From Methylocystis echinoides (GTDB lineage Bacteria > Pseudomonadota > Alphaproteobacteria > Rhizobiales > Beijerinckiaceae), in the NCBI RefSeq assembly GCF_040687965.1, contig NZ_CP156084.1, positions 2,604,501 through 2,668,500 on the forward strand: a DNA stretch of 64,000 nucleotides. The letters are read 5' to 3'. The notes beneath the pieces were generated by a model. It had not been told where the DNA came from. It saw only the letters and a list, made by a program, of their open reading frames with translations, and made no database searches. The translations under genes and the position numbers were made by a program. The stretch's first letter is position 1. Each line of letters opens with the position of its first letter. Of the stretch, positions 46,149 through 56,056 are shown one piece after another.

Positions 46149-47678
46149 ATGACCGACCTTGATGTGAATGACAGGCTGGCATTTATCGGCCTGAATGACG
46201 CCGCTCGACAGAGTCTCGTGGCGATCCGGCCCATCCTCGAGAAGGAACTTTCGCCGGGCCTGGACGAATTCTATCGCCACGTAACCGCTCATCCCAAAAT
46301 GCGGGGGCTATTTTCCGACGCCTCACGCGCCGAGGCTGCGAAGCAGAAGCAGATTCAGCATTGGCTGGGCATCGCCAGCGGCGACTTTGGTCAACAATTC
46401 GTAGAGGTCGGCGCCGCAGTGGGGCGCGCACATGCGCGAATGGGAATCGCACCACGCTGGTATATCGGCGGCTACGCGCTCATCCTCACCATGCTGGCCG
46501 CGAAGGTCATCGAAGCGCGCTGGCCGAAGGCCGTCTTCGGCGCGCGCGCGACGAACGGCAAGCAGGTCGCCGAAGAGATTAGCGCACTGATCAAGCCCAC
46601 CTTGCTCGACATGGATGTGGGCGTTTCCGTCTATCTCGATGTGTTGGAAGAACGCCGGCTGCAGGCGGACAAAGCGCGCGCCGTATTGGAATCGGATCAG
46701 CGCAGCATGCTACTCGATTTCGGCGACAGCCTCCAGCGCCTTGCGCAGGGCGATCTCATGGCGAAGATCGACAAGGAGTTCTCTGGCAATTACGAGAAGC
46801 TCAGGCTCGATTTCAACAAGGCGCTCGACAGTCTCGACGAGGCGATGTCGTCGATCGCCGCCGCCGCCGACAGTTTTCGCGGCACCTCTCAGGAAATCGC
46901 CGTCGCCTCGGACAATCTCTCCAACCGCACGGAGCAGCAGGCGGCCAGTCTCGAAGAGACGGCGGCGGCCCTCAATCAGATCACCGATGCGGTGAAGCAA
47001 AACGCCCTCGGCGCCAAGAAGGTCGCAACAATCGTCGCCGGCGCGCGCGTTGAAGCGTCCCGCTCGTCGGAAGTCATGCAGGACGCCAATGTCGCCATGG
47101 CCGAAATCAAGCAGAGCTTCGAGAAGATCAGCGGCACATTGAGCATGATTGACGAGATTGCGTTCCAGACAAATCTCCTCGCCCTCAACGCCGGCGTTGA
47201 AGCCGCGCGCGCCGGCGAGGCGGGGCGGGGCTTCGCCGTTGTTGCGCAGGAAGTGCGCGTGCTGGCGCAGCGTTCCGCGGAGGCCGCGAAAGTCATCAAA
47301 AGCTCGTCGTCGCACGTTGACCGGGGCGTAAAGTCGGTCGCCGATACGGGCGAAGCGCTCGCGGGGATCGTTGCAAGAGTGACTGAAGTCGACAAACTCG
47401 TCGGCGCAATCGCGACCTCATCCGAGGATCAGGCTTCGAGCCTCAACGAAATCAACCAGGCCGTCACGCAGATGGATCAGGTGACGCAGCAAAACGCCGC
47501 GATGGTCGAGGAAACGACCGCCGCTGCGGCGAATCTGAAGTCGGAGTCGAGCCAATTGGCGACGAGGGTCGCGCGGTTTCGCGCCGGGCGATCAGCGCGC
47601 GAGACAAAAAACCCTGTCGCGCAGTCGCAGGCGGCGATCGCCGACGCCTTCGGCGCGCGCATGGAGAGCGCCGGCTAG
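46149..47678 (+). CDS. Globin-coupled soluble methyl-accepting chemotaxis receptor
   Basis: This is a cytoplasmic chemoreceptor of 509 residues without membrane segments. Residues 1-170 form a protoglobin/globin-sensor domain of the HemAT type, with proximal haem His95 in [23 protein letters not shown]-like/coiled region follows ([20 protein letters not shown]). The signalling domain has the conserved hairpin tip [20 protein letters not shown]. HemAT-type receptors bind O2 and steer aerotaxis, so this is the likely oxygen input to the operon. The start at 46149 has AGAGGAAGACGCC upstream. Confidence 0.92.
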
Positions 47679-47950
47679 ACGCAGCGACGTGACATGCGGC
47701 GAGCGGGGAACGGCTCGAGCGGTGAAGCCTAAGGTTCGCTTAACCTCCGCCGGTTATAAAGCGTTCTATCGGCATTGGCGCCCGAGCGGCGGCCAAAGGC
47801 ATGAAGCCGCGACCGATAGGCCGGTTCGATCCGGAATTCCCTCATATCAATAGCGCCCCTTCGAACGGCAGGTCTTCTCGACCCCTCTGACCTTCGTCTG
47901 CAGTGGGCGCATGGGAGCGCCGTGCGTCATCGGATCCGAAAGAGGAAGAA

Positions 47951-49408
47951 ATGCGGCTTTTGCGCAGACTGCTTGCGCCGGTCATCGGCCTGTCGATTAC
48001 GCCCTGGCTGCTGCTTGGCATGGGTTATTCCGCCAGCACGCTCCTCGCCTATCCGTGGTTCGCGGCGCTTGTCGGTCTGACGACGGCGTTTTCCATCTAT
48101 GTCCTCGCCTCTGTGGTGCAGGATGAGCGCGCGGGTCAAGACGGCGCCATCGCCGAAGCGCTTCTCGCCTGCGAAGGCGCGGTATATGCGACTCCGATCG
48201 AGCTCGGGTCGATCGCCAGCGACGCTCCGATCGTGGAAGCCATCGAAAGGATGCGGAAGACGCTCAATGGGCGCGCCGAGCAGGCGATAAAGGAGCTTCG
48301 CAGCGAGAAAGAAGCGGCCCAGAAGCGGAAAGCCGAGGAAGAGGAAATATCCCGCGGCTATATCGAGGCTCATGAATTTTTCATGAGAACCTTCATCAAC
48401 GCGCTCGTCGAACTCTCGCATGGAAATCTTGGAATTCGCCTGGAAACGAGCTTCTCCCGTGACTACGAAAAGCTGCGCGAATGCTACAATGAGAGCGTCG
48501 ACAGGCTGAACCAGACCTTCGGCAAGACGCTTGCAAGCATGCACAGGCTCGGTTCGTCGACCGATCAGATCGCCTCCGCCGCCAATACGCTCTCCGAGCG
48601 CACGTCGCAGCAGGCCGCGAGCCTGGAGGAAACGACGGCCGCGCTGCGCCATATCACGACGACCGTCGGCAAGATCTCGGAGAATGCCCAAAGCGCCAGC
48701 GCGCTCGTCTCGGATATTCGCGGCAATGCGGAGGCGAGCAGCGAGGTCGTGCGCGAGGCGATCCGCGCGATGGAACGGATTGAAAGATCCTCAGCCGAAA
48801 TAGAAAAAATTATCGGCGTGATCGACGAGATCGCTTTCCAAACCAATCTGCTCGCATTGAACGCCGGCGTCGAAGCCGCGCGCGCAGGGGAAGCCGGGCG
48901 CGGCTTTGCGGTCGTGGCTTCCGAAGTGCGCGCGCTGGCGCAAAGATCCGCAGAGGCCGCAAAAGGGATCAAGAGTCTCATCGCGGGGTCCACCATTCAG
49001 GTGCGCGACGGCGTTCAGCTCGTTTCACAGACAGGCGATGTCCTCGCGCAGATTGTCGCGCAGGTCGTCGGCGCCAATGACATCGCCGCAGACATCGCCG
49101 GCGGCGCAAAAGAACAGTCGGCCGCGCTGCTCGAAGTCAACGTCGCACTCGGCGAGATGGACAAGTTCACGCAGGAAAACGCCGCCATGGTCGAGGAAAC
49201 GGCTGCGGCGACCCGCAGTCTCGAAGAGGAGATTGGCGGCGTCATCAAGGCTGTCTCGATTTTCACGCTCGCCCGGATGAAAGGCGTCCAACCGTCGCAG
49301 AAGCGGAGGCCCGAGCGCCTCATTCAGCGTGTGTCGTCACAGCAGAGAGGCGGGGCCGCGCTGAAACTCGAGACCGTTCCCGATACGCAAAGCTGGGAGG
49401 AATTCTGA
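47951..49408 (+). CDS. Methyl-accepting chemotaxis protein, membrane type
   Basis: The 485-residue receptor has two closely spaced N-terminal membrane segments ([19 protein letters not shown] and [20 protein letters not shown]) with almost no periplasmic loop. It therefore probably senses membrane or internal cues. A coiled/HAMP-like region ([20 protein letters not shown]) and the signalling domain with [20 protein letters not shown] follow. The ATG at 47951 has AGAGGAAGAA directly upstream and is preferred over the GTG at 47903. It shares its signalling domain closely with the preceding receptor. cheW begins two bases after its stop. Confidence 0.9.
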
Positions 49409-49410
49409 AG

Positions 49411-49884
49411 ATGAGCGGCGCACCCATTCAGGCGGCGCAGGGCGTCGAACCGCAGGAATTTATCGCCTTTCATGTCGGCGAGCAGACATACTGCATCGAT
49501 ATCATCGCGGTGCGCGAGATCAGGGGCTGGACCCCGGCTACGCCGCTCCCCCACGCGCCGCCCTTCGTGCGCGGCGTGATCAATCTGCGCGGCTCGGTGC
49601 TTCCGGTTGTGGACCTCGCGGCGCGGCTGGGCCTGCCGATCAAGGAGCCGACCGCTCGGCACGCCGTCATCGTCGTGCAGAGCAACGGGCAGATCGTGGG
49701 TCTGCTCGTCGAGGCTGTCTCCAACATCATGACCATCAGCGCCGACGCCATCCAGCCGACGCCGGAGGTCGCATCAGATTTGTCGCGATCCTTCATCAAA
49801 GGCATCGTCGCAGCGGACAAGGAGGTCATCAGCGTGCTCATTGTCAAGAATCTGTTGCCCGATTCCATGCCCTTCGCCGCCTGA
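49411..49884 (+). CDS. cheW: CheW adaptor protein
   Basis: CheW links receptors to the CheA kinase. The 157-residue protein is a single CheW/SH3-like domain: FIAFHVGEQTYCIDIIAVRE, PHAPPFVRGVINLRGSVLPV, and VGLLVEAVSNIMTI are the standard strands. The start has GGGAGGAATTCT upstream. It is the third gene of the cluster; the STAS gene follows after 32 bases. Confidence 0.95.
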   Translation: MSGAPIQAAQGVEPQEFIAFHVGEQTYCIDIIAVREIRGWTPATPLPHAPPFVRGVINLRGSVLPVVDLAARLGLPIKEPTARHAVIVVQSNGQIVGLLVEAVSNIMTISADAIQPTPEVASDLSRSFIKGIVAADKEVISVLIVKNLLPDSMPFAA

Positions 49885-49916
49885 TGTGAAAGCTTAACAA
49901 AGTCGGAGAGAAGGGT

Positions 49917-50222
49917 ATGGACGCAGAACACGCACAAGCCTCGCTCTATGAAGTCACTTTGCCCGAAGCCCTCGACCTGAGGGCCGCGCTTCCCCTCGCC
50001 AACTCACTGCTCTCGGCGAGAGGCGGGGCGATCAGGCTGGACGGCTCGCAGGTCAAAACCGTCGGCGCGCAATGCATGCAGGTCATTTTATCCGCGCGCC
50101 ACACGTGGGAACGCGACGGGCTTCCGCTTACCATCATCAATCCCACCGAGGATCTTCTCAACGCATTCGTCGACGCGGGGTTGAGCATCGAAGGCTTGGT
50201 AGAGGGTGAACAAGGCAAATGA
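49917..50222 (+). CDS. cheS: STAS-domain chemotaxis protein, CheS-like
   Basis: The 101-residue protein is a single STAS domain (IRLDGSQVKTVGAQCMQVIL, then LTIINPTEDLLNAFVDAGL). It lacks the serine of classic anti-anti-sigma factors at the usual place, with Val/Gly there instead. In Sinorhizobium meliloti the gene directly before cheY1-cheA encodes such a STAS protein, CheS, which binds CheA and helps drain phosphate from CheY1. Position, size and domain agree, so I use that name by analogy. It overlaps cheY1 by ATGA. Confidence 0.75.
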   Translation: MDAEHAQASLYEVTLPEALDLRAALPLANSLLSARGGAIRLDGSQVKTVGAQCMQVILSARHTWERDGLPLTIINPTEDLLNAFVDAGLSIEGLVEGEQGK

Positions 50223-50584
50223 GCAAGAAAATTCTTACCGTTGATGATTCAAAGACGATGCGTCAGATGCTTGAAGTGGCGCTGACAGCGGCCGGCTTCG
50301 AGGTGGTGCAAGCCGGCGACGGCCTCGAAGGCCTCGAGACGCTAGAGATGACGACTCCGGACGTGATCGTGACCGATATCAACATGCCTCGGATGGATGG
50401 CTTCGGATTCATCGAGGGCGTTCGTACGCATGAGCGGCATCGGGCGATCCCGATCCTCGTCCTGACGACCGAAAGCGACGCGGAAAAGAAGGAGCGCGCA
50501 CGGCGGGCCGGCGCGACGGGGTGGATCGTGAAGCCTTTCGATCCAGCCAAGCTGGTGAGCGCGATCAAGCGCGTGAGCGCCTAG
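50219..50584 (+). CDS. cheY: CheY response regulator (first copy)
   Basis: This is a single receiver domain of 121 residues. The acidic pocket is Asp9/Asp10, the phosphorylation site is Asp53 (VTDINMPRMDG), Thr is in LVLTTESD, and Lys is in GWIVKPFDP. The overlap with the STAS gene and the position before cheA match cheY1 of the rhizobial operon. There it acts as a phosphate sink rather than the motor ligand. That role is inferred for this copy. Confidence 0.93.
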   Translation: MSKKILTVDDSKTMRQMLEVALTAAGFEVVQAGDGLEGLETLEMTTPDVIVTDINMPRMDGFGFIEGVRTHERHRAIPILVLTTESDAEKKERARRAGATGWIVKPFDPAKLVSAIKRVSA

Positions 50585-50599
50585 ACGTCGGAGGCGGCC

Positions 50600-52774
50600 T
50601 TGGACCATTTGGAAGCCATCAAGCAGACGTTCTTCCAGGAATGCGAAGAACAGCTCTCCGAATTGGAGAGCGGTCTTCTCTCGATCGAGGACGGCAATCA
50701 CCACCCCGAAATCATCAATGCGGTGTTTCGCGCTGTTCATTCGATCAAGGGCGGCGCCGCCGCTTTCGGATATGACGAACTCGTGGAGTTCGTCCACGTC
50801 TTCGAGACGACGCTCGATCTGCTCCGCTCCGAAGTGTTGACGCCGACTCCGCAGATCACCAAGGTCTTGCTGCATTCGTCCGACGTTTTGTCCGACTTGA
50901 TCCGCGCCGTCCGGAATGAAACCACCTGGGACGTCGAACAAGTCGCGTCAGCCAAATCCGGACTGGAGGGGGTTTGCGCCGAGCCGAAAAAGCGTCAAGC
51001 GTCTCACAGCGCCGCGACCCCAGACGCCGAAGATGAAATCGACTTCCAACCCGTCGCGATATCGCTCGATGCGATTTTCGGCGAGGAGGGGGAGGACGAG
51101 GAGACGTCCGACGGCCGGTTCACGATCTATTTCCGCCCAAAGCCGACGCTTTACGCGCGAGCGAATGAGGCGCTACGCATCCTGCGCGAGATTAAGGCGA
51201 CTGGCGAGGCCAGTGTTTCCTGCGACTGTTCTGAACTGCCGCTGTTGACCGAACTCGATGCGGAAGGCGCGTATTTTTCCTGGACTGTCGAGCTGAAAAC
51301 GGAGGCGCCCGCTTCCGACATCGAGCAAATCTTCGATTTCGTTTCCGCCGACTGCGACTATTCCGTACATCCAGCGGAGAAGCGGCGCGTGGCGGAAGCG
51401 GCCCCTGAGGATCCACCCGACCCGCCTTGCGTCGAAGCCTCCTGCGCCGAGGAACAACCGTCGCAAACGCCTCCGCCGCCGCCGCAGCCTGAGCCAAAGA
51501 TCATCGCGGAAGCGGCTACAGCGCCGGCGAGCAAGCCGCAGGGCTTCGAGCAGCAGCCGCCGCCGATGCAGGAAACCATTCGCGTCGATCTCGACAAGAT
51601 CGACCGCCTCGTCAATCTCGTTGGCGAGCTTGTGATCAATCAGGCCGTGCTGTCTCAGCGGGTGTCCGAAGCGGGCCTGCCCCGGGGCTCCTCCGTGATG
51701 ATTGGTCTGGAGGAGCTCGAGCAGTTGACCCGCGATATCCAGGACAGCGTCATGGCGATAAGGGCGCAGCCCGTAAAGCCCATCTTTCAACGCATGTCCC
51801 GCATCGTGCGCGAGGTGGCGGCGATCACCAAGAAGTCCGTTCGACTCGTCGTCGACGGGGAAGGCACTGAAGTCGACAAGACTGTCGTCGAGCGTTTGAC
51901 CGATCCGTTGACCCATATGGTGCGCAACGCGGTCGACCATGGAATTGAAAGCCCGGAAGACCGCATTGTGGCGGGAAAGCCGGAGGAAGGCACCTTACGG
52001 CTCTCGGCGACCCATCGATCCGGACGCATCATCATCGAAGTCACCGATGATGGCGCGGGGATCAACCGCGCGCGCGTACGTGAGATCGCGATCCGAAAAG
52101 GTCTGATACCAGAAAACGCGGTTCTCTCCGATGAGGAGACTGATGGGCTGATCTTTCTGCCAGGCTTCTCCACAAACGCCACGGCGTCGAGCATTTCGGG
52201 CCGCGGAGTCGGCATGGACGTCGTGAAGCGGGCGATCCAGGCGCTGGGCGGCCGCATCGCCATCTCGTCGCGCCAGGGCCGCGGCTCGACGTTCTCGATG
52301 AGTCTACCGTTAACCCTGGCGGTTCTCGACGGCATGGTGGTCAATGTCGCGGGACAGATCCTTGTGCTGCCGTTGACTGCTGTCATCGAAACTCTTCAGC
52401 CGAGAACTCAAAACATTCATGCTCTCAGCTCTGGTCTCAGAGTGATCGGCAATCGTAGCAGCTTCATCCCGCTGATCGACGTCGGCATGATCCTGTCCTA
52501 CCGCTTTCAGGAGGTCGACCCGACGACACAGGTCGCCCTTCTCGTGGAGTCGGAAAGCGGCGAGAAATGCGCGCTGCTGGTCGACGCGATACAGGGCCAG
52601 CGCCAAGTCGTCATCAAGAGCCTGGAATCCAACTACGGAAAAGTTCCAGGCATCGCGGCGGCGACGATCCTCGGCGACGGGCGCGTCGCACTGATCGTCG
52701 ACGTGGACGCGGTGCTCGGCCTTTCGCGCGGGGATTATTATCAGGTGAGCGACGCTCCGCTCGAGGCGGTTTAG
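50600..52774 (+). CDS. cheA: CheA chemotaxis histidine kinase
   Basis: CheA phosphorylates CheY and CheB in response to receptors. The 724-residue protein has P1 with phospho-His47 (AVFRAVHSIKGGAAAFG), then a diverged P2-like domain and a Pro-rich linker (PSQTPPPPPQPEPK). P3 dimerisation follows, P4 with HMVRNAVDHGIE and TDDGAGINRARV and FLPGFST boxes, and a C-terminal CheW-like P5. Translation starts at TTG (50600) with GGAGG five bases upstream; no ATG fits. It is separated from cheY1 by 15 bases. A decayed second CheA-type gene lies 3.3 kb downstream. Confidence 0.95.
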   Translation: MDHLEAIKQTFFQECEEQLSELESGLLSIEDGNHHPEIINAVFRAVHSIKGGAAAFGYDELVEFVHVFETTLDLLRSEVLTPTPQITKVLLHSSDVLSDLIRAVRNETTWDVEQVASAKSGLEGVCAEPKKRQASHSAATPDAEDEIDFQPVAISLDAIFGEEGEDEETSDGRFTIYFRPKPTLYARANEALRILREIKATGEASVSCDCSELPLLTELDAEGAYFSWTVELKTEAPASDIEQIFDFVSADCDYSVHPAEKRRVAEAAPEDPPDPPCVEASCAEEQPSQTPPPPPQPEPKIIAEAATAPASKPQGFEQQPPPMQETIRVDLDKIDRLVNLVGELVINQAVLSQRVSEAGLPRGSSVMIGLEELEQLTRDIQDSVMAIRAQPVKPIFQRMSRIVREVAAITKKSVRLVVDGEGTEVDKTVVERLTDPLTHMVRNAVDHGIESPEDRIVAGKPEEGTLRLSATHRSGRIIIEVTDDGAGINRARVREIAIRKGLIPENAVLSDEETDGLIFLPGFSTNATASSISGRGVGMDVVKRAIQALGGRIAISSRQGRGSTFSMSLPLTLAVLDGMVVNVAGQILVLPLTAVIETLQPRTQNIHALSSGLRVIGNRSSFIPLIDVGMILSYRFQEVDPTTQVALLVESESGEKCALLVDAIQGQRQVVIKSLESNYGKVPGIAAATILGDGRVALIVDVDAVLGLSRGDYYQVSDAPLEAV

Positions 52775-52817
52775 CCGGGGCCTCGGTATAAATACAGCTG
52801 ATTGGGAGTTCAGGAGC

Positions 52818-53690
52818 ATGGAGCCGTTGGCGCGGGCAAGCCAACCCGACATCATGACAGCGTTCAAGTTCACCGACGGGGACTTTCGCCAAATCTCGCG
52901 GATCCTCAACTCGGAAGCAGGGATCTATCTGTCGGAGGCAAAGGCGCCCTTCGTCTATTCGCGATTGACGAAGAGGCTTCGCGCGCTTGGCATGGAAAGC
53001 TTCCACGACTATTGCGCGTTGATCGCAAGCGATTCCGGTGAGACCGAGCGCTACCAGATGATCGCCGCTCTGACAACGAACGTCACAAGATTTTTCAGGG
53101 AAGAACATCACTTTGCTGATTTGAGGAGGCATGTCCTGGAGAGGCTCGCTCCAGCCGCAAGAACGGGCCGTCGCATAAGGGTCTGGTCCGCAGCCTGTTC
53201 GAGCGGTCAAGAGCCATATTCGATCGCCATGACCATTTTCTCGGTGTTGCCAGAGGCTGAAAGCCTCAATATTCGCGTGCTCGCCACCGATATCGACTCC
53301 TATATGATCGAGGCGGCGATCGCGGGAGAATATGGCGAGGACGCAGTCGAGTCGGTTCCCGGAGACATGCGGCGCAAGTGGTTTTCTCCAGCAGGAGAAG
53401 GACTGTGGAAGATCAGCGAAAGGCTCGGATCCATCGTTGCCTTCCGCAAGCTCAATCTCGTCCGCCCGTGGCCGATGAAGGGAAAATTCGACGCCATCTT
53501 CTGCAGGAACGTTGCGATCTATTTCGAAGAAAAGACCCAGCAGGAAATCTGGCGCCGCTTCGTGCCGCTGCTCAATCCCGGCGGCGCGCTTTACATCGGC
53601 CATTCGGAACGCGTGACCGGGCCGGCGGCGAGCGTTCTCGTGAGTGACGGCGTGACAACTTATCGCCTTCCCGAAGGAGTCGGCCCGTGA
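52818..53690 (+). CDS. cheR: CheR receptor methyltransferase
   Basis: CheR methylates glutamates on receptors using S-adenosylmethionine, giving adaptation. The 290-residue protein has the N-terminal helical CheR_N domain and the methyltransferase core with [29 protein letters not shown] and [13 protein letters not shown]. The start has AGGAGC directly upstream. The last codons overlap the GTG start of cheB (GTGA). Confidence 0.95.
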
Positions 53691-54718
53691 AAAGTTGCAA
53701 TGTTCTTGTCGTGGACGACTCGCGCACGATGCGATCTTTGATCGCGGCGACGCTTTCCGCCGATCCGGAAATAAACGTTGTCGGGGAGGCTTGCGACGCC
53801 TTCGAAGCGCGAGACGCAATCAAACAACTCAGCCCCGATGTCGTCACGCTCGATATTGAGATGCCGAAGATGAACGGTCTCGATTTTCTCGAGCGCATCA
53901 TGCGGCTGCGTCCGACGCCGGTTATCGTCATCTCCAGTCTGACGGAGCGGGGCACCGACACGAGCATTCGCGCGCTGGAAATCGGCGCGGTCGATTGCAT
54001 CGCGAAGCCATCGCCGGGCAACAAGGATTCACTGGGTGACCTCGGCGCGCGGGTCAAGGCGGCGGCGGGCGCGCAGCTGCGCAAGCCTCGCCTCGGCGAT
54101 GCGGCGCCGGTCAGGAACGCGGCAAGCTATCTTTCTGACGGTCGTGTCGTCGCCATCGGCGCGTCCATGGGGGGCGTCGAGGCGCTGTGCTCCTTGCTGT
54201 CGCGGTTTCCGGAGAACTGCCCGCCGACCGTCGTCACCCAGCACATGCCCGCGATGTTTACGAAGAGCTTCGCCGACAGACTCAACCGCCTGTGCCGCCC
54301 GAAAGTGACGGAGGCCGTAGACGGCGCGATCCTGTCGCCGGGGCAAGTTTATATTGCTCCCGGCGGCGCAAGACATCTCCTCGTCGCGGGCGCAGATCGG
54401 CCGCGATGTCGTTTGCAGGAGGGCGACCTCGTTAGCGGACATCGCCCTTCCGTCGACGCCTTGTTCCAGTCGGTCGCGCGAACGCTCGGGCCAAAGTCCG
54501 TCGGCGTCATTCTGACCGGCATGGGCCGCGACGGCGCGCAGGGGCTCTCCGCCTTGCGTCAAACCGGCGCGGAAACGATCGGGCAGGACGAAGCGACCTC
54601 GCTCGTCTATGGAATGCCGCGGGCGGCCTTCGAGCTTGGCGGCGTTTCTCAGCAGCTTCCACTCAGCGCGATTGCGGATCGCATCCTGACAATGACGAAT
54701 AAGAAGAGGATGAGGTAA
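53687..54718 (+). CDS. cheB: CheB protein-glutamate methylesterase
   Basis: CheB removes receptor methyl groups and is activated by phosphorylation. The 343-residue protein has an N-terminal receiver (Asp10, Asp11, phospho-Asp56 in [11 protein letters not shown]). The C-terminal methylesterase carries the triad Ser160 ([11 protein letters not shown]), His186 (TQHMPAMFT) and Asp282 (GMGRDGAQG). The GTG start overlaps the cheR stop by four bases. It is followed after one base by the second cheY. Confidence 0.95.
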
Positions 54719-54719
54719 G

Positions 54720-55106
54720 ATGAGTGTAGCAGACCAACTCCGCGTGCTGATCGTCGATGACACCAGCACGAGCCGACTCCTGCTGCGAGATGCGCTGGAC
54801 CAGATCGGGGTGAACAAGGTCTTCTTCGCGACCGACGGCGAGAAAGCCTTGAAGTTCATGATGGATACGCCGGCCCATCTCGTCATCTCCGATGTCAACA
54901 TGCCGGTGATGGATGGCATGGGCCTGCTCAAGGCGATCCGAGGCTACAAACCGACGCAGCGGGTTCCGTTCATCGTGCTGACGGGGCAGGCGGACAAGGC
55001 GATCGTAGAGACCGCCGCAAAGCTCGGCGTCAACAATTATCTCGTGAAACCAGTAACCGTCCCGAAGCTCAAGACCGCGATCGAAGCCATTTTCGGAAAG
55101 CTTTAA
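54720..55106 (+). CDS. cheY: CheY response regulator (second copy)
   Basis: The 128-residue receiver has Asp13/Asp14, phospho-Asp58 ([14 protein letters not shown]), Thr in IVLTGQAD and Lys in NYLVKPVTV. Its position after cheB and before cheD matches cheY2 of the rhizobial operon, the copy that binds the flagellar motor there. It differs clearly in sequence from the first copy. Its stop overlaps the cheD ATG by one base. Confidence 0.93.
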
Positions 55107-55648
55107 TGGAGCAGAGTTCTCATCCTATCCGCAAGATTCACGTCATACAGGGCGAATGCCAGGTGGTGACAGAGCCGAATGTCGTCCTCTCGACTGTGCT
55201 CGGGTCCTGCGTCGCCGCCTGTTTGCGAGATCCCGGAGCTGGCGTCGGAGGCATGAATCACTTCCTGCTCCCAGGCGGAGATACGTCCCGAAACCAGGAA
55301 TCCGAGCGATATGGCGCTTATCTGATGGAGTTGTTGATCAATGGGCTGTTGAAGCGCGGCGCGCGGCGCGACCGCATCGAGGCGAAGCTATTCGGCGGCG
55401 CGCGCATGCTCCAGGGACTGTCGGACATTGGCGCGCAGAACGCCGCCTTCGCGAGACAGTTCCTGGCCAATGAGGGCATTCGCATCCTGGCTGAAAACCT
55501 CGGCGGCACGCATGGCAGGAGATTGGAGTTTTTCCCCGTTTCCGGTCGCGCTCGACAGATTCTGCTGCCGCAAAACTCATCGATCGTGGAGCCGTCGCCA
55601 AAGCTCGCGCCGAAGGCCGAGAACCATGGGACGCTGGAGCTATTCTAG
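55106..55648 (+). CDS. cheD: CheD receptor glutamine deamidase
   Basis: CheD turns receptor glutamines into glutamates so that CheR can methylate them. The 180-residue protein has the catalytic Cys35 in [10 protein letters not shown] and His52 in [11 protein letters not shown], and the KLFGGARML segment of the family. The start codon shares its A with the cheY2 stop. Confidence 0.94.
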
Positions 55649-55696
55649 AGCTGCGTATTCACAGATCAGCCATTACGAACGACGTGGGAGTTGGCG

Positions 55697-56056
55697 ATGA
55701 GCGACATGGACGGGAGACCCTTGGGGGAGGTGCTTGTTCGTATCGGCGTGGAACTGTCGGAAGCGGCTGTGTCGGTCGAAGATCTGCACGCCCTCGTCGA
55801 GGCTACGGTGACAAATGGCGGCACGACCGACATTTTCATGCGCCAAGCGCAGACAATCGATATTCTGCAACAGCATCTCGCCGCCCTGGCTGATTTCCTG
55901 TGCCAGCTGTCCGATGCGATCCCGCCTTCGTGGCGCATCGAAAGTGAAGATGCGATGAGCAACGTCAAGCTCTCTCGCCTTCGGGATCGTTTGAGCCAAA
56001 TGTGCGCCGCGGAGACGTCGGATCAGCATGCGTCCGGGGACCTCGATATGTTTTGA
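55697..56056 (+). CDS. cheT: CheT-like candidate CheY phosphatase
   Basis: The 119-residue, mostly helical protein has its start at the ATG at 55697, with GGGAG six bases upstream; a TTG two codons earlier is possible. One helix contains TIDILQQHLAAL with Asp55 and Gln59 in the D-x3-Q spacing that CheZ-type phosphatases use on CheY-P. In S. meliloti the gene directly after cheD encodes CheT, a small phosphatase with that motif. Position, size and motif agree, but overall similarity cannot be judged here. It is the last gene of the operon. Confidence 0.6.
   Translation: MSDMDGRPLGEVLVRIGVELSEAAVSVEDLHALVEATVTNGGTTDIFMRQAQTIDILQQHLAALADFLCQLSDAIPPSWRIESEDAMSNVKLSRLRDRLSQMCAAETSDQHASGDLDMF

Follow-up and report, generated by a model that had tools for sequence, protein, structure and literature searches.

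A rhizobial-type chemotaxis operon in Methylocystis echinoides with a C-terminal tail common to CheD and the CheT-like protein

Introduction

The chemotaxis (che) operons of Sinorhizobium meliloti and Agrobacterium fabrum, as described in the accessible text of PMC12654446, encode a CheS comprising a STAS domain only, a CheT with a DxxxQ motif, two CheYs, a CheD and a single CheA. The S. meliloti CheS binds CheA and aids the transfer of phosphate from CheY to CheY via CheA, and CheT has the DxxxQ motif, binds CheR and speeds the dephosphorylation of one CheY~P. The same account states a CheZ-like fold for CheT, and a role of CheS as a sigma-factor antagonist is suggested. Here we analyse an operon of this kind in Methylocystis echinoides, comprising 11 genes on the same strand at positions 46149–56056 of a window of 64,000 nucleotides (C1:2604501–2668500, on contig NZ_CP156084.1) in a genome of 4.35 Mb and four contigs. 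The S. meliloti and A. fabrum operons are compared through the published description, and the loci used for sequence comparison come from other Rhizobiaceae. Methylosinus, the sister genus, is flagellate and has many receptors; full flagellar gene sets, together with CheA, are present in Methylocystis strain ATCC 49242 and two Methylocystis parvus strains (PMC7285482, accessible text).

Results

Relationship to the rhizobial che operons

Relatives were taken from the best 80 of 596 CheA matches in named genomes. Nine Rhizobiaceae loci are of the operon type (L017–L021, L023, L032, L035 and L038); a tenth, L094, belongs to a distant class. The nine share the order receptor–cheS–cheY1–cheA–cheR–cheB–cheY2–cheD–cheT, and the section from cheS to cheT is ordered in the same way in the window. 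The window CheS matches those of the nine loci at 29–37% in blastp, and the window CheT at 28–34%. The arrangements differ in the location of cheW. In the window cheS comes after cheW and a second receptor, as in L159–L163, whereas in the Rhizobiaceae cheW lies downstream of cheA (eight of nine loci; L023 has no cheW match by blastp). The nearest loci outside the genus are L160–L163, which could belong to Methylosinus. Across 20 loci of the family, blastp matched CheS in 18 and CheT in 17; the CheT of L171 was found through its C-terminal tail and motif (see below), and L174 and L178 have no CheT match.

In a quick tree of 101 CheA sequences the window CheA falls within an alphaproteobacterial set of 38 rows that includes Rhizobiaceae and Caulobacteraceae (Shimodaira–Hasegawa-like approximate likelihood ratio test 98, no bootstrap). 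Its closest neighbour is a relative within the genus, and it lies apart from the distant CheA classes. The locus of Caulobacter vibrioides (L026) is similar in having a Protoglobin receptor upstream, the order S–Y–A–W–R–B–Y–D, and a protein in the CheT position that carries QxxDxxxQ and ends GELDFF; it differs in that its CheA is 50% identical and the CheT-position protein is unmatched by blastp with the window CheT. A first-pass annotation, made from the sequence alone, had drawn the parallel with the S. meliloti operon. The gene order, matched in all nine Rhizobiaceae loci, the homology of CheS and CheT and the CheA clade all agree with it, and the CheA does not group with a clearly non-rhizobial class. 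On this comparison the window operon is predicted to be orthologous to the principal che operon in Rhizobiaceae and in Caulobacter, and is an ordinary putative flagellar chemotaxis operon of the rhizobial type.

The operon is headed by a receptor in which a Protoglobin domain is joined to a methyl-accepting chemotaxis protein (MCP) signalling domain, in keeping with its original assignment as globin-coupled, and it is probably oxygen-sensing. The globin head was considered as an unusual feature of this operon and discarded as such, as a Protoglobin receptor is present in all four related loci tested (L017, L032, L023 and L026, from the genera Rhizobium, Hoeflea, Pseudohoeflea and Caulobacter), where four of five receptor open reading frames (ORFs) carry the domain. 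In L159 and L164–L166 there is no blastp match to the globin receptor within 6–9 kb upstream. A chemotaxis system with such a receptor would suit an aerobic methanotroph in oxygen gradients.

Flagellar genes in the genome and their association with the CheA class

At first pass no flagellar gene had been noted in the 64 kb of the window, and this fits the FliM match and three flagellin-N matches of the genome, all of which are located outside it. The suggestion that a flagellum is encoded elsewhere was correct: fliM, motA and flagellin genes were all found, in a cluster at 818–838 kb of the same contig, with FliM at 828 kb and two flagellins at 837–838 kb. Ten ORFs of this cluster were tested against Pfam, and nine match flagellar families, namely rod or hook protein of the FlgE/F/G type, FlgI, FlhB, FliG, FliN, FliM, MotA, MotB and flagellin; the tenth, FlgB-like by eye, has no Pfam match at E 1e-5. 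FlhA is also matched in the genome. The third flagellin-N match, at 2512 kb, lies 92 kb upstream of the window (L016, G000:C1 2510578–2513937) in a frame that resembles a hook-associated protein by eye, and suggests a second flagellar locus. The operon cheA is the single PF02895 (CheA) match of the genome above the Pfam cut-off.

The association of this CheA class with flagellar genes was examined at two levels. Among 16 genomes of the genus (its own included), with the class taken as CheA matches of E 2.4e-275 or better, FliM and FlhA are both present in 5/5 genomes with the class and 1/11 without (Fisher p 0.0014, kinship ignored). Two of the latter, G089 and G151, match neither FliM nor FlhA, and the CheA that they carry is a distant one (E about 1e-64). 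The family sample comprises 248 genomes, where the class was cut at E <= 1e-190 by our own choice; this cut omits at least 11 further genomes whose CheA matches are shorter but reach 62% identity or higher. FlhA is found in 47 of the 49 genomes with the class, FliM in 43 and either in 48; the base rate is high, with FlhA in 143 and FliM in 131 of the other 199 genomes. The association has Fisher p 0.003 for FliM and 0.0001 for FlhA, again ignoring kinship.

The CheT-like protein

The last gene encodes a protein of 121 amino acids (aa) that matches Pfam only at E 0.1 or worse. It aligns with the NCBIfam CheT model NF047973 over residues 10–121 (112 of 121 aa) with E 1.2e-9 and 38.3 bits, the equivalog cut-off being 200. 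An hhalign comparison of seven CheT-like proteins from the window side with eight CheT-position proteins of Rhizobiaceae, the latter labelled by position and by the description in PMC12654446, extends over 116 columns (E 1.9e-17, probability 98.9). The likeness of the terminal gene to CheT proposed at first pass is recovered by both profile searches, below the cut-off in the case of NCBIfam. The protein is a predicted distant homologue of CheT, and by the NCBI cut-off is not an equivalog.

The CheT alignment (A1) has 31 rows. It includes 30 of the 34 relatives, 26 of them found by blastp and four (L026, L030, L041 and L171) through tail and motif; L063 and the near copies L021, L038 and L165 were left out. 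Q54, D57 and Q61, which constitute the DxxxQ motif already noticed in this gene, are invariant in all rows together with L94 and L101, and R17, E21, L22, G116 and F121 are nearly so. A further alignment, A4, includes 47 of 52 relatives (L021, L038, L065, L163 and L165 left out). The AlphaFold model of the window CheT is a long helical hairpin (predicted local distance difference test, pLDDT, 77.5) with D57 and Q61 in the second helix. A structural route from CheT to CheZ gave no support: the first Foldseek matches are EsxA/EsxB-type hairpins (E 0.4–0.6) and none reaches E <= 0.001. CheZ is absent from the 50 Foldseek matches shown and from the 26 matches of a PDB profile search, most of the latter being coiled coils or designed helical proteins.

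A shared C-terminal tail in CheD and CheT

In both CheD and CheT a variable linker is followed by a common C-terminal tail, roughly G-x-[LIVFC]-[DE]-[LFM]-F. This is the part worth following in an otherwise ordinary operon. The exact ending [LIVFMC][ED][LIVFM]F was searched in 12,536 stop-to-stop ORFs of at least 60 aa from 100 loci (80 from named genomes and 20 from the family). It occurs in 92 ORFs, comprising 44 CheDs, 47 proteins with the motif [LIVMA]QxxDxxxQ and one spurious antisense ORF, so that 91 of the 92 are either CheD or carry the motif. The overlap of tail and QxxDxxxQ expected by chance is 1.2; the corresponding p of 8e-67 should not be read at face value, since the motif pattern was written post hoc and the loci are related. 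The tail is present in none of the ORFs of CheA (104), CheR (84), CheB (87), CheW (100), CheY1 (106), CheY2 (65) or CheS (38).

Among the 47 proteins with tail and motif, 29 are in the CheT position and one is in L096. The other 17 carry the tighter form [LIVM]Q[FY]xDxxxQ and are mostly non-alphaproteobacterial, L036 and L060 being alphaproteobacterial. Some are short (about 160–200 aa) and mostly encoded immediately upstream of cheY; the others are longer, and several of these have an MCP domain. Five of the short proteins were tested and have no Pfam match at E 0.01, and the long protein of L080 has a weak match to CheZ (E 0.003, below the cut-off).

Within the first set of 66 loci with CheD, the tail is three residues or fewer from the end of CheD in 49 and within the last 45 residues in 52. 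A tail-bearing QxxDxxxQ protein is present in 42 of these 66 loci, compared with 7 of the 34 lacking CheD, and in four of those seven (L061, L074, L080 and L088) the locus ends no further than about 2 kb from cheA. A new CheD set was drawn from a search that matched 116 of 299 genomes. In its best 30 loci the tail forms the exact end in 14 and lies no more than three residues from the end in 23 (including these 14), deeper in three, and is lacking in four; one of the loci, L211, is apparently from the same genome as L058. By eye, the penultimate residue of the tail shows no pattern of covariation between the CheD and the CheT encoded at the same locus. In the literature searched, mostly without subscription journals, no description was found of a tail common to CheD and phosphatases.

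Discussion

Output of the system

We conclude that the operon very probably constitutes the only chemotaxis system of a flagellate Methylocystis, with a flagellar output, given the flagellar genes and the one CheA above cut-off in this genome and the association across genomes. Several observations weigh against this. The window CheT is far below the NCBI equivalog cut-off, and a second PF02895 match exists in the genome, at a sub-threshold E of 0.16. A long stretch of the contig separates the che operon from the flagellar cluster, which makes the link between them one of inference. Within the genus, G057 has FliM and FlhA and no CheA match at E 1e-30, and most flagellate genomes of the family are without the CheA class, hence flagella do not require it. 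Conversely G067, of the family, has a che cluster of this class (CheA 57% identical; operon L246, G067:C130, cut by a contig end) and no FliM, FlhA or rod-domain match in a genome rated 100% complete, which may reflect recent flagellar loss, a different output or an error of binning. According to the accessible text of PMC7285482, the described species of Methylocystis are non-motile. The last two points, and the lack of flagellar genes near the operon, would suit control of a non-flagellar trait, at which the first-pass annotation had hinted, such as the cell surface, cysts or development. We consider this very improbable and rejected it as the principal interpretation in view of the flagellar cluster, the sole CheA over the cut-off, the association of its class with FliM and FlhA, and its separation in the tree from the distant CheA classes. 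Also improbable is a dual role of CheA, in which the second CheY would carry a further output beside the motor. There are two CheYs for one CheA, and a second output has been proposed for A. fabrum, whereas the CheS-aided transfer between CheYs in S. meliloti fits a phosphate sink (PMC12654446, accessible text). A rhizobial-type chemotaxis system, globin-coupled receptor included, is retained here in a member of Methylocystis, which is described as a non-motile genus.

Possible role of the tail

We tentatively propose that CheD and a DxxxQ CheY phosphatase carry a common C-terminal docking peptide that would couple receptor deamidation with the removal of CheY~P. With similar caution, the phosphatase might be CheT in alphaproteobacteria and a CheZ-like or McpA/CttP-like protein in beta- and gammaproteobacteria. 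In a specific version of this idea the tail would dock as a beta strand on CheD, and the tail of the phosphatase would compete with that of CheD itself. In the AlphaFold model of the window CheD (48 rows) a confident core is followed by a loose linker and a last block of pLDDT 69, in which residues 176–179 are in a strand or bridge; as these need a partner, the tail is predicted, with modest confidence, to pair within CheD. The 48 rows were preselected for the tail, so conservation of the terminal F there is circular. The model fold matches the CheD of Thermotoga (2f9z_C, E 2e-15). The Thermotoga CheC–CheD complex (2f9z) is alike in the CheD deamidase fold and is a precedent for a phosphatase–deamidase pair. 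It differs in that the alignment of Thermotoga CheD, which has 159 residues, extends to residue 152 and leaves no room for a tail; a likeness of CheT to CheC would be hypothetical. Alternatively, the tail could resemble the terminal pentapeptide of receptors and serve for docking on CheR. It is in register with the xWxxF terminus of receptor 2 (SWEEF), x-F-x-x-F types are known in class 34H receptors (PMC2577667, accessible text), and CheT of S. meliloti binds CheR, as noted above. We regard this as unlikely, because the second position of the pentapeptide site in Pseudomonas aeruginosa McpA is a valine, which blocks binding to all four CheRs, and that valine fits the V-E-L-F form of the tail (McpA as described in the accessible text of PMC7184735). 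Moreover, the window CheR is without the enteric [RK]-G-x-G, as are other alphaproteobacterial CheRs that occur with xWxxF receptors, and some CheDs have extra residues after the tail.

If the coupling of CheD and phosphatase is real, McpA-like ‘receptors’ would be phosphatase-type proteins. The shared tail would offer a handle on the C-terminus of these proteins, which is highly conserved and has an important yet unclear role (PMC7184735, accessible text), and on the retention of CheD beside a CheZ-type phosphatase in many systems. McpA-like proteins with a CheZ-like LQFxDxxxQ stretch and a CheD-like tail were observed at L045:16201-17376, L049:15757-16950, L088:6292-7482 and in L181–L210, with an MCP domain by Pfam in those of L045 and L088. 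Relatives of the L045 protein were matched in 48 of 299 genomes of the phylum, and all 30 loci read have the tail and [LIVM]Q[FY]xDxxxQ; the query was picked for its tail, so its homologues are likely to share both. By these features, McpA-like proteins may belong with phosphatase-type proteins and not with the receptors.

A proposed signalling scheme

The receptors, one of them globin-coupled, would drive CheA through CheW, and CheA would phosphorylate CheB and the two CheYs. One CheY~P would act on the flagellar motor encoded at 818–838 kb, while CheR, CheB and CheD would adjust the receptors. CheS would assist CheA in taking phosphate from one CheY, and CheT would dephosphorylate a CheY. 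The choice of the motor-driving CheY and the roles of CheS and CheT are inferred from S. meliloti and general knowledge of chemotaxis. The window CheS is a single STAS domain adjoining cheY1. Its alignment has [AGTV]-x-C-x-Q in 35 of 40 rows (the exceptions being L020, L029, L030, L060 and L178), at what we take to be the site of the phosphorylated serine in SpoIIAA and classical STAS antagonists. This stretch speaks against phospho-regulation of CheS, and the suggested role as a sigma-factor antagonist was set aside.

Gene content and other features

The gene content proposed at first pass (two receptors, cheW, a STAS gene, cheY1, cheA, cheR, cheB, cheY2, cheD and a DxxxQ gene) agrees with Pfam, which supports 10 of the 11 genes, and with NCBIfam (Table 1).

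Table 1. Genes of the che operon, in window coordinates
Feature	Position	Strand	Evidence
Globin-coupled receptor, Protoglobin + MCPsignal	46149..47678	+	Pfam PF11563 E 1.3e-31, PF00015 E 7.3e-43; without xWxxF tail
Second chemoreceptor	47951..49408	+	Pfam PF00015 E 2.6e-46; C-terminus SWEEF fits xWxxF pentapeptide
cheW	49411..49884	+	Pfam PF01584 E 1.3e-38
cheS-like, STAS-only	49917..50222	+	Pfam STAS_2 E 3.5e-10; blastp homologues before cheY1–cheA in 9 Rhizobiaceae loci
cheY1	50219..50584	+	Pfam PF00072; 75–77% identity to cheS-adjacent CheY of 9 Rhizobiaceae loci
cheA	50600..52774	+	Pfam Hpt, H-kinase_dim, HATPase_c, CheW; CheA tree
cheR	52818..53690	+	Pfam PF01739 E 3.2e-65; CheR_N + CheR
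cheB	53687..54718	+	Pfam PF01339 E 3.7e-62; Response_reg + CheB_methylest
cheY2	54720..55106	+	Pfam PF00072 E 8.9e-25; same position in related operons
cheD	55106..55648	+	Pfam PF03975 E 2.4e-28; ends GTLELF (55628..55645); model fold matches 2f9z_C
cheT-like, 121 aa	55691..56056	+	NCBIfam NF047973; QxxDxxxQ motif; ends GDLDMF (56036..56053)

The genome has four MCP signalling domains, of which two are inside the operon. All of the four receptors except the globin-coupled one terminate in xWxxF (SWEEF, DWMEF and AWEEF). Among the smaller contigs, 8 kb of one match plasmids of Methylocystis iwaonis (87%, over 72% of the query), and a piece of a second gives weaker matches to plasmids of Methylocystis and Methylosinus, in line with the genus. 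Elsewhere on the chromosome there are two genes of the AMO/PmoA family (L179 and L180) with equal scores, as expected for a methanotroph.

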